Part shown: positions 15,890 to 22,899 of the stretch, piece after piece | Layout of the letters: each line of letters starts with the position of its first letter | How positions within the stretch are numbered: the stretch's first letter is position 1 | Virus record (IMG/VR): IMGVR_UViG_3300037491_000053 | Span: 1-22,899 of that record | Origin: a virus | DNA length: 22,899 bases | Reading direction: 5' to 3' (one strand) | Program-made: the position numbers and the translations under genes | The notes under the pieces: model-generated | Database searches by the model: none | The model's input: only the letters and a program-made list of their open reading frames with translations | Told to the model about the DNA's origin: nothing

Positions 15890-17464
15890 ATGGGCGAGGT
15901 CCTGGCCGAGGCGGTCTCGGAGCACTACTCCGACGACACCGACGACGAGCGCGCGGCCCGCCGCGCCACCGAAGTCGTGCTCGACCCCTATTCGCAGAAG
16001 ACCGTCGATCACGTCGTCTCGCGCATGCTGGTCGTCGTCGACGAGGTCTCCGGCCACCCGCTGCGCCCCTACCAGATCCCGTTCGGCCGCCGCGTCATCG
16101 AGTCCCTGGTCATCGGCGATGGCGAGACGATCACCGCGCTGTTCAGCCGGCAGTCCGGCAAGAGCGAGACGGTCGCCGACCTTGTCGCCGCCTGCATGAT
16201 CATGTTTCCGCGGCTGGCCCCGATCTACCCGGAACTGCTCGGTAAGTACTCCGAGGGCATGTGGGTCGGCGCCTTCGCACCCGTGGATGAGCAGGCTGAC
16301 ACACTCTATGGGCGGATCGTCGAGCGCCTGACCTCCGATCGCGCCCTGGAGATCCTGGCGGACCCCGAGATCGACGAGAAGGCGCTTGGCCGCGGGCGCG
16401 AGCTGCGCCTGGTCAAGTGCGGCAGCCTGGTGCGCAAGACGACCTGCCACCCTCGGGCGAAAATCGAGGGCAGGACATACCACCTCATTCTGATCGACGA
16501 GGCCCAGGACGCCGACGAACGCGTGGTCAACAAGTCGATCTCCCCGATGGGCGCGGCCACGAACGCCACCAGCGTCTGGACCGGGACCCCGACCTACACC
16601 AAGGGCGTTTTCTTCAGGCAGATCGCCAAGAACAAGCGGAGCAACGGCGGCCGGAAAAGCCGCCAGAACCATTTCGAGGCCGACTGGAAGACGGTCGCGA
16701 AGTCGAATGCGAATTACAAGAAATTCGTCCTCAAAGAGATGCTGCGCATCGGCGAGGACAGCGACGAGTTCCGCCTGAGCTATCGGCTCCAATGGCTCCT
16801 GGAGACCGGTATGTTCACCACGTCGCAGAGGATGGACGAGCTCGGCGACCTGTCCATGCAGGTCGTGCAGTACTGGTTCAAATCACCCGTCCTGGTCGGT
16901 ATCGACCCGGCCCGCAAGCAGGACTCGACGATCGTCACGGTGGTCTGGGTCGCCTGGGACCACCCCGACGAGTACGGCATGTACCAGCACCGCATCCTCA
17001 ACTGGTTGGACCTGACCGGCCTGGACTGGGAGGAGCAGTATTTTCGCATCACGGATTTTCTGAGCCATTACGCCGTGCTGGCCATCGGTGTGGACTCCGG
17101 CGGGGTGGGCGACGTCTTCGCCTCGCGGCTTCGTGTCCTGATGCCCGGCGTCGACATCGTCGACATGCCCGCGGATCGCGGTGCCCAGTCGAAACGCTGG
17201 AAGCACCTGATGAGCCTGATGTCCTCCGGCAACGTCGGCTGGCCGGCGCACGCGAAGACCCGCCGGCTGCGCACGTGGCGTCGTTTCCGGGCCCAGATGG
17301 AGGACGCCGAGCTGAAGTACGAGGGGCCGAACGTGATCGTCTCCGCGCCGCGCGAGGCGGACGCGCACGACGACTACGTGGACAGCCTGGCCAACGCGTG
17401 CGCGCTGACCGTCGACATGATCATGCCCGAGGTCGAGCAGACCAACGACGTCTTCGGCCGGTAG
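15890..17464 (+). CDS. terL: Terminase large subunit (packaging ATPase-nuclease), 524 aa
   Basis: Motor that cuts concatemeric DNA and drives it into the prohead through the portal. ATPase features: Walker A-like SRQSGKSE (86-93), Walker B LILIDEAQ (199-206) with catalytic Glu, and coupling motif SVWTGTP (228-234). Nuclease features (RNase H-like): GIDPARKQDS with Asp at 339, GVDSGG with Asp at 402, and HDDYVDS (493-499). Length is typical. The ATG at 15890 has GAGGCGGTGAG overlapping or just upstream. No small terminase is recognised nearby, so one of the unassigned small proteins probably fills that role. An 18-bp direct repeat follows the stop codon. Confidence 0.96.
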   Translation: MGEVLAEAVSEHYSDDTDDERAARRATEVVLDPYSQKTVDHVVSRMLVVVDEVSGHPLRPYQIPFGRRVIESLVIGDGETITALFSRQSGKSETVADLVAACMIMFPRLAPIYPELLGKYSEGMWVGAFAPVDEQADTLYGRIVERLTSDRALEILADPEIDEKALGRGRELRLVKCGSLVRKTTCHPRAKIEGRTYHLILIDEAQDADERVVNKSISPMGAATNATSVWTGTPTYTKGVFFRQIAKNKRSNGGRKSRQNHFEADWKTVAKSNANYKKFVLKEMLRIGEDSDEFRLSYRLQWLLETGMFTTSQRMDELGDLSMQVVQYWFKSPVLVGIDPARKQDSTIVTVVWVAWDHPDEYGMYQHRILNWLDLTGLDWEEQYFRITDFLSHYAVLAIGVDSGGVGDVFASRLRVLMPGVDIVDMPADRGAQSKRWKHLMSLMSSGNVGWPAHAKTRRLRTWRRFRAQMEDAELKYEGPNVIVSAPREADAHDDYVDSLANACALTVDMIMPEVEQTNDVFGR

Positions 17465-21108: not shown

Positions 21109-22899
21109 ATGTCCATGGCATTTCCCAGCCCGAGCATGCGGGCCGCCGCCTCGGACCTGACTGTCGCTATCAGCCCCCTGGGATTGGTCGAACTTGCCGA
21201 CGAAGAATTCGAGGTCCACGGTCCGCGACTGAACCGTTACGCTTCGAATCTGGCGTGGTTCCTCGGCCACCACTACGGCTACAAGTCCGAGACTGGCGAC
21301 AACCAGCTGACGTTCAACTACGTCCAGGCCTTTTCGCGCTTCCTGACCAACTTCACCTTCAGCCGCGGCGTGCACTTCCGCGCCGACCGCGCGTTCGAGC
21401 ACATCACGCCGGCGCTGCTCAAGCGCGTGTGGGAAGTCGACAACAACAAGGAAAGCCTGCTGATCGATATCGGCGAGCTGGGCAGCGTCTGCGGCGACGT
21501 GTTCGTCAAGGTCGCTTACGAGCCGGCCTGGACCGATGCGGCGAAGATGCGTCACCCCGGCCGCGTACGCCTGCTCGCGATCAACCCGAGCTTCGCCTTC
21601 CCGGAGTACCACCCGCACGACGCCTCGAGGATTCTGAGGTTCAAGCTGAAGTATAGGTTCTGGGGGTGTGTTGACCCTTACACGGAGGCACTGACCAGGA
21701 AGGGATGGAAGCCGTACACGGAGCTGAAGGATGGCGACGAGATCCTGACTATGGACCCTGTCGCCGGAACGATCGCCTGGCAGGCGGCTCGGATCAACGT
21801 GTACGACTATGACGGCGATCTCGTCCACTGGACGAATCGGCTCGACGCATTGACGACGCCCAACCACCGCTGGCTGGGGGAGATCGCGCACGGGCGCGAC
21901 AAGACGTTCCGCTTCGAGCGCGCCGCCGTGCACACGGAGTTCGTCGGCGACCTCAACCGCAGCTCACGTCTAGTCCTTGGCGGCGGCCTTCCGGCCGGCT
22001 TCGCCGAGACGCCGACCTATGAGGATGAGCTTGTTGAGCTGGTCGCCTGGTATGTAACCGAAGGCTGGACGCACGTCAACCAGAACGGTTGTCGCAGCGC
22101 CTACATCGCGCAAAAAACACCGTCAGGTATCGAGGCCCTTCGACGGCTGGCCAAGTACTGGCGTGGGCGGCGGGCGACCTTCAACGAGTACCGACCGGAC
22201 GAGAACGGTGTCGTCACCTTCTACCTTGGCCGCGGGATCAAGAAGCAACTGTTCGAGGCAGCTCCCGATAAGGCCATCACGTCGGAGTTCATCAGCCAGC
22301 TCACTTACGCGCAGGCGCGCCTGTTCCACGAGACATTGCTGGACGGCGACGGCAGCCGAAGGAAGGGCGAGAAGAACACCGTTCGTTTCTCCCAGCTTGA
22401 TGAGGGCCGTGTCGCTGGCTACCAGATGCTCACCGCCATGCTCGGCATCCGCACCCGCTGGGACGGTAAGGACGTCCAGGAATACACCGAGAACACTCTG
22501 AGCCGAGACGGTGTCCGGCGTGGCGAGGAGCGCGTTCCCTATTCCGGCAAAGTCTGGTGCCCGACGGTGCCCACGGGCTTCTGGATGGCGCGCCGCGGCA
22601 ACACGACGTACTGGACGGGAAATACCTCGACCGAAGGCACTCGTCAGGTCTATACGTACACTGAGATCATCACGGACGACTTCGTCGAGGAGTACATCAA
22701 CGACGAGCTGATCGACTCGCATCCCAACGGCCTGGGCATGGTGCCGATCGTGCACATCCCCAACATCGAGGTGCCCGGCTCGCCCTGGGGGCTGAGCGAT
22801 ATCGCCGACATCATCACCCTGAACCGGGAGTTCAACGAGCAGGCCACCAATGTCAGCGAAATCATTAATTACCATGCAGCACCCGTCACCATCGTGGTC
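21109..22899 (+). CDS. Portal protein interrupted by an intein; 3' end outside window
   Basis: Portals form the dodecameric DNA channel at one vertex of the head and dock the terminase. Open frame of 597 codons to the window edge. The N-extein (1-186) and C-extein (506 on) together read like the N-terminal half of an SPP1-gp6-like portal: helices near 40-60, a FRADRAFEHITPAL segment, FPEYHPHD (about 165-172), LKYRFWG (180-186), then TSTEGTRQVYTYTEIITDD and GMVPIVHIPN. The sequence between (187-505) is the intein. ATG at 21109 with AGGAGGG 13 bases and GGGAGG 10 bases upstream; a second ATG at 21115 is possible. Portal identity is inferred from extein character and position after terL; the intein is firm. 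Confidence 0.9.
   Translation, partial: MSMAFPSPSMRAAASDLTVAISPLGLVELADEEFEVHGPRLNRYASNLAWFLGHHYGYKSETGDNQLTFNYVQAFSRFLTNFTFSRGVHFRADRAFEHITPALLKRVWEVDNNKESLLIDIGELGSVCGDVFVKVAYEPAWTDAAKMRHPGRVRLLAINPSFAFPEYHPHDASRILRFKLKYRFWGCVDPYTEALTRKGWKPYTELKDGDEILTMDPVAGTIAWQAARINVYDYDGDLVHWTNRLDALTTPNHRWLGEIAHGRDKTFRFERAAVHTEFVGDLNRSSRLVLGGGLPAGFAETPTYEDELVELVAWYVTEGWTHVNQNGCRSAYIAQKTPSGIEALRRLAKYWRGRRATFNEYRPDENGVVTFYLGRGIKKQLFEAAPDKAITSEFISQLTYAQARLFHETLLDGDGSRRKGEKNTVRFSQLDEGRVAGYQMLTAMLGIRTRWDGKDVQEYTENTLSRDGVRRGEERVPYSGKVWCPTVPTGFWMARRGNTTYWTGNTSTEGTRQVYTYTEIITDDFVEEYINDELIDSHPNGLGMVPIVHIPNIEVPGSPWGLSDIADIITLNREFNEQATNVSEIINYHAAPVTIVV
21667..22623 (+). mobile_element. Intein with LAGLIDADG homing endonuclease (319 aa) in portal
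   Basis: A protein intron that excises itself. N-terminal block A starts at Cys187 (CVDPYTEALTRKGWKPY, DGDEILTMD); block B is TTPNHRW (249-255) with the conserved Thr and His; C-terminal block F is VWCPTVPTGFWMARR (482-496) and block G ends WTGN (502-505). First residue after it is Thr506. So splicing uses Cys1, terminal Asn and Thr+1; the penultimate residue is Gly rather than the usual His. The endonuclease has two LAGLIDADG motifs, LVELVAWYVTEGW (308-320) and LFHETLLDGDGS (405-416), each keeping its acidic residue, so it may still be active. No frameshift or stop is seen. Confidence 0.94.

Follow-up and report, generated by a model that had tools for sequence, protein, structure and literature searches.

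The SPP1-type portal protein gene at the end of the analysed window (the whole stretch of 22,899 nucleotides, positions 1 to 22,899 of the IMG/VR record IMGVR_UViG_3300037491_000053) contains an intact, full-length intein (Table 1). Judging from sequence and structural model, the phage is probably BRock-like and tailed, and the intein in its portal is probably bifunctional, predicted to combine class 1 splicing with homing. The product of the gene is a precursor that consists of an N-extein, the intein and a C-extein. The initial annotation had placed an intein of this length at exactly these coordinates, and the reading frame indeed passes through it with zero stops and zero frameshifts. Its GC content (63%, and 80% at third codon positions) is similar to that of the flanks. 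Blocks A, B, F and G are all recognizable, along with Cys1, the TPNH motif, the terminal Asn and Thr at position +1; the insertion is in frame, and uninserted homologues are joined exactly at its junctions.

Table 1. Features of the portal gene and its intein (window coordinates)
Feature	Position or sequence	Strand	Remarks
Portal protein gene, SPP1-type	21109..22899	+	incomplete, runs off the window end; ATG at 21109
N-extein	21109..21666	+	ends ...FKLKYRFWG; from alignment with uninserted portals
Intein	21667..22623	+	319 aa, Cys1 to Asn319; residues 187-505 of the portal ORF
Block A	CVDPYTEALTRKGW	+	read from the translation
Cys1, predicted class 1 nucleophile	21667..21669	+	invariant in 105/105 non-redundant relatives
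Block B, TPNHRW (ALTTPNHRW)	21856..21873	+	Thr64 (B:7), His67 (B:10), Trp69 (B:12)
LAGLIDADG endonuclease domain	22003..22521	+	residues about 113-285, limits approximate; Pfam LAGLIDADG_3 and model
Endonuclease catalytic acids	22060-22062 (Glu132); 22348-22350 (Asp228)	+	motifs ELVAWYVTEG and FHETLLDGDG
Block F, GKVWCPT region	22549..22566	+	Cys298 (F:4) at 22558-22560
Block G, YWTGN	22609..22623	+	Thr317 (G:5), penultimate Gly318, Asn319 (22621-22623); followed by Thr+1
C-extein	22624..22899	+	incomplete; first residue Thr+1 (22624-22626), Thr in 75/75 uninserted portals

The host gene

The exteins that flank the intein match the PHROGs portal protein family phrog_64 with an E-value of 1.6e-12 for the portal fragment in the window, whereas Pfam SPP1_portal on this fragment alone scores 21.6 bits, under the cut-off of 25.5. 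In the sister portal L031, SPP1_portal is matched across the insertion site (E 1.2e-19) and phrog_64 with an E-value of 1.1e-36. When the intein is removed, the portal aligns with those of the Streptomyces phages LuckySocke and BRock without gaps across the junction, with 64% and 63% identity, respectively. These matches identify the extein as a predicted SPP1-type portal protein, in agreement with the portal host named in the initial annotation. A comparison of PDB chains with the portal profile gives no match, and an AlphaFold2 model of the portal built from five uninserted relatives has a pLDDT of 33.

The large subunit of the terminase is encoded 3.6 kb upstream of the portal gene, at window positions 15890-17464 (phrog_2, E 1.5e-26). 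The region between the two genes contains mostly unassigned ORFs, and the gene order is like that in LuckySocke and BRock.

Empty and filled insertion sites

The junction in the window, LKYRFWG|TSTEGT (the bar marks the insertion point), corresponds to LKYRFWG|TNTEGT in the uninserted portals of LuckySocke and BRock, so that the sequence FKLKYRFWG|T[NS]TEGTR is kept; the joined coding site of the intein-free window portal is AAGTATAGGTTCTGGGGG|ACCTCGACCGAAGGC. Among 75 full-size uninserted portals, counted after dropping the artefact row E_L144 (a truncated filled contig rather than an empty site), the +1 residue is Thr in every case and the -1 residue is Gly in 72 and Ser in 3. Thus, the splicing nucleophile at +1 appears to be supplied by the extein, and the target of the intein is a strongly conserved stretch of the portal, as had been proposed from the sequence of the window together with the insertion point itself. 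All 75 of these relatives lack the segment 187-505 exactly. The possibility that this segment is a lineage-specific domain of the portal, one of the outcomes originally named as refuting the intein, has nothing in its favour beyond the open reading frame; given the empty sites, on which it was rejected, the presence of all splicing blocks, the HINT fold of the model and the homologues in unrelated host proteins, its probability is close to nil.

The nearest relative found is the empty portal L031, with 83% protein identity and with DNA flanks that are 73% and 81% identical. Scans with a protein, with an alignment and with a DNA pattern for the junction together show that the same site is filled in 12 other IMG/VR contigs, which represent four further alleles (L009, L010, L012 in two contigs and the L117 group in eight contigs); L225 additionally contains the C-terminal end of another copy at this site, at the contig edge. 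The same-site inteins are 52-57% identical to that of the window, and the exteins are 56-65% identical. Genes with and without the intein are intermingled in the tree of portals: the window portal pairs with the empty L031 (support 100), and L117 pairs with the empty L086, to which it is 91% identical.

Within the L117 group, comparison between contigs gives 0-1 differing codons of 333 in the intein and up to 35 of 572 in the exteins (Fisher p of 1.4e-6 for intein versus extein divergence between L120 and L126). Nearly identical inteins between diverging exteins are consistent with recent homing but are not proof of it, because the low-divergence valley over the intein is not unique and these mosaic genomes have further segments that are nearly identical. 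Together with the intermingling of filled and empty genes, such inteins give indirect support to the predicted cutting of the uninserted allele.

Predicted structure and the endonuclease

The AlphaFold2 model of the intein, based on nine fetched sequences, has a pLDDT of 81.6 and a pTM of 0.82, with residues 73-107 being unreliable. The intein is predicted to adopt the HINT fold, with a two-helix LAGLIDADG insert. The complete model (residues 1-319) matches the TliVMA intein with a Z-score of 20.8 and an rmsd of 4.2 over 284 aligned residues, and also PkoII (Z 20.1) and PI-PfuI (Z 18.3); residues 116-276 match I-DmoI with a Z-score of up to 10.9. For the splicing domain alone, the best structural match is the class 3 split intein AceL NrdHF (Z 14.2, rmsd 2.2), which is also the top profile match among the PDB sequences, whereas a search of these sequences with the single intein sequence yields no match.

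A Pfam search identifies LAGLIDADG_3 in the insert, with a score of 23.4 bits (cut-off 22.5). Both endonuclease motifs, described as intact in the initial annotation, end in the expected acids, Glu132 and Asp228, and lie in the matching fold of the model. A tblastn search with the insert finds 91 phage records with one place covering at least 80% of it, and the hosts include portals, terminases, methylases and others. The agreement of these observations is no coincidence.

An intein that looks intact can nevertheless be inactive, or carry an endonuclease without specificity, in which case it would be a fixed passenger in this phage. Activity is not readable from sequence, and chromosomal relatives of this intein often have decayed endonucleases; against this, neither a known catalytic position for splicing nor an endonuclease acid is missing, a portal intein that does not splice would probably be lethal, and the site is filled in some close relatives and empty in others. 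The passenger explanation is accordingly considered improbable.

Residues of two splicing classes

Position 1 of the window intein is Cys, one of the residues (Cys, Ser or Thr) that characterize class 1, and the complete 'WCT' set of class 3 is present as well, with Trp69 at B:12, Cys298 at F:4 and Thr317 at G:5. These three residues constitute the class 3 signature (PMC5222942, PMC3196547), and Thr at +1 is usual in class 3 inteins (PMC5222942). However, class 3 is operationally defined by the absence of Cys1 (Hoffmann 2020, PMC7891396), and Trp at B:12 is found in class 1 inteins too (PMC7891396); because Cys1 is present, the window intein is not filed as class 3. The initial annotation was right about Cys1, His67, the terminal Asn and the penultimate Gly but overlooked Trp69, Cys298 and Thr317. 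Inteins mixing the WCT set with Ser1 or Cys1 were reportedly described by Tori and Perler in 2011.

A scan with a DNA pattern for blocks F and G, with Cys F:4, Thr G:5, Gly and Asn as fixed residues, retrieves 122 distinct inteins from viral and bacterial contigs, 105 of which remain below 80% identity. All 105 non-redundant relatives have Cys1, His B:10 and Trp B:12, none of which was selected by the pattern; the endonuclease Glu is kept in 78 of them and the Asp in 85. The other scan, with a block A pattern, leaves position 1 free, although it fixes Val-Asp after this position, which may favour Cys1. It yields 143 full inteins, near-duplicates and loci of the first scan included, with Cys (141) or Ala (2) at position 1 and Trp at B:12 in 78. 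Block F contains Cys in 140 of these inteins and Asn, Ser or His in the other three (L293, L353 and L357), all of which keep Cys1, so that both cysteines are absent in none. The penultimate Gly, pointed out originally as standing in place of the usual His, is present but hardly exceptional, being the norm of the family (139/143); a phage intein with a penultimate Gly splices completely, and replacement of this Gly by His slows splicing (Kelley 2016, PMC5050341).

At an RtcB-like site, GVDIG|CGM, allelic inteins have either Cys1 (L115, L295) or Ala1 (L300, L320), all with the block F Cys. Among the wider relatives, the role of Cys1 can thus, it seems, be taken over by the Cys of block F. These alleles might represent a natural switch from class 1 to class 3; they have Cys at +1, which is rare for class 3.

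Given that Cys1 is invariant in the group of the window intein, it appears to be needed, and the most likely initiator is Cys1, as in class 1, a possible alternative being the block F Cys. With the full triplet present, the first step could use Cys298. In a class 3 or either-route scheme, His67 and Thr317 would assist Cys298 in its attack on the N-terminal junction, Trp69 would pack the core, and Cys1 would be dispensable. Such a scheme is compatible with the complete triplet followed by Thr+1, with the retention of the unselected Trp B:12 in all 105 relatives, with the AceL NrdHF matches of the splicing domain and with the RtcB-like alleles. It is nonetheless rather unlikely: the published definition demands that Cys1 be absent, invariance of Cys1 in 105 Trp-bearing relatives is unexpected for a dispensable residue, Trp B:12 does not distinguish the two classes, and the three family members without the block F Cys retain Cys1.

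Predicted course of splicing and homing

With class 1 initiation as the preferred reading, we infer splicing, an order of nucleophiles, DNA cutting and a need for splicing in head assembly, as follows. The portal would be made as a single precursor, from which the HINT domain would excise residues 187-505 and join ...KYRFWG to TSTEGT.... Cys1 would attack the Gly186-Cys1 bond, assisted by Thr64 and His67 and also by Cys298, at a position that is normally Asp. The N-extein would then be transferred to Thr+1, cyclisation of Asn319 would proceed although the penultimate residue is not His, and rearrangement of the ester would yield a peptide bond. For homing, the prediction is that the two-motif LAGLIDADG enzyme cleaves portal genes without the intein at this site, after which repair would copy the intein in. 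Portals form a 12-fold ring, and splicing of a portal intein would be needed for head assembly.

Several insertion sites in one portal gene

A search of all fetched loci with the portal profile for large inserts reveals portal inserts at three site clusters (a, b and c) with five insertion points; the initial annotation had overlooked that this gene has further sites. Site a is KYRFWG|T; site b is QVF|SFTEL in L153 and QVFTY|TEL in L196; site c is INYHA|SPVT or near variants in L153, L190, L230 and L366, and INYH|TAPVT in L225. The portal of L153 (IMGVR_UViG_3300050128_000053) contains two complete inteins, one at site b and one at site c, with about 75 residues of the portal between them, and that of L225 contains one complete and one truncated intein. 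At site c, the +1 residue is Ala in uninserted portals and Ser or Thr in inserted ones, which suggests that the nucleophile was brought in by the insertion or arose along with it. The portal ORF of L190 extends about 355 aa beyond the match to the portal profile.

In a tree of 36 intein sequences, all 12 portal inteins fall into a single clade (support 100/100), within which the inteins group by site (a, 94/96; b, 99/93; c, 95/89); a quick tree of 104 sequences again recovers the same 12 portal inteins as one clade. This clade is also recovered from the splicing domain (100/99) or the endonuclease domain (99/93) by itself, whereas grouping by site is weaker with single domains and is not fully resolved on the splicing domain alone. 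A single clade across sites implies that one lineage appears to have colonised several points, and these results point to rare movement within the portal gene. Inspection by eye of the DNA around sites a, b and c reveals no evident similarity. Movement of inteins to new sites is very difficult and likely very rare (Goodwin 2006, PMC1635734).

A broader scheme can be put forward tentatively, with less than even confidence: a large clade would keep Cys1 together with the class 3 set as a bridge between the classes, in which either Cys may start splicing, and one lineage of it would have moved between nearby sites of the portal gene (five points in three clusters). Support for such a bridge comes from the RtcB-like inteins, allelic members of the wider family with either Cys1 or Ala1.

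The wider family and comparison with known systems

The family also includes chromosomal inteins (L233-L267) in Nocardiopsis, Nonomuraea, Streptomonospora and others, mostly actinomycete contigs. The Nocardiopsis-type gene encodes an Amidase_2 protein in the case tested (L251); its inteins have invariant splicing residues and, in many copies, decayed endonuclease motifs, in a graded series of the homing cycle. L163 and L242 (the latter from a Saccharibacteria MAG) are mini-inteins of the family, 158 and 157 aa long, that lack the endonuclease, and in the ORF of L242 Intein_splicing is matched separately.

Mycobacteriophages and Gordonia phages were already known to have inteins in their portals, to which the window adds one that belongs to an informative family. 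Taken by itself, it is a further example of a phage intein that interrupts an essential protein of packaging, and the useful part is the family: more than 100 inteins with Cys1 and the class 3 triplet make up a natural panel on the origin of class 3 splicing, which is of use because a laboratory attempt to graft WCT onto a class 1 intein was unsuccessful (PMC7664689). A portal gene with neighbouring sites filled by one lineage is also a tractable case of inteins reaching new sites.

No published description of an intein at KYRFWG|T was found in the open-access papers searched. The closest counterparts are the same-site inteins of the uncultured IMG/VR contigs (L009, L010, L012 and L117 groups), which occupy the same point, KYRFW[GS]|T (KYKFWG|T in L012), have the same catalytic set and form a group with that of the window in the intein tree (94/96). 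The intein of the Gordonia phage Woes gp8 portal (annotated 'contains intein') is 31% identical and shares Cys1, HRW, WCPT and TGN, but resides in another portal family and at another site, outside the clade of the portal lineage described here. The six portal inteins of cluster C1 mycobacteriophages (Kelley 2016, PMC5050341) likewise interrupt a phage portal, although of a different family and at a different site.

The Bethlehem RDF intein (PMC5050341) has the penultimate Gly, is class 1 according to its authors and has been shown to splice, but in another host protein; it is not among the matches listed in a tblastn search with the metallophosphatase intein L023. Inteins of the TliVMA, PI-PfuI and PI-SceI type, which are of the class 1 type, have the same architecture of HINT and LAGLIDADG domains, but are only 11-16% identical to the window intein and differ from it in their canonical penultimate residues. 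AceL NrdHF (PDB 6zgq, PMC7891396), the closest solved splicing domain, resembles the window intein in the lack of the block G His and, unlike it, has Ala1 and an MCT triplet, is split and contains no endonuclease.
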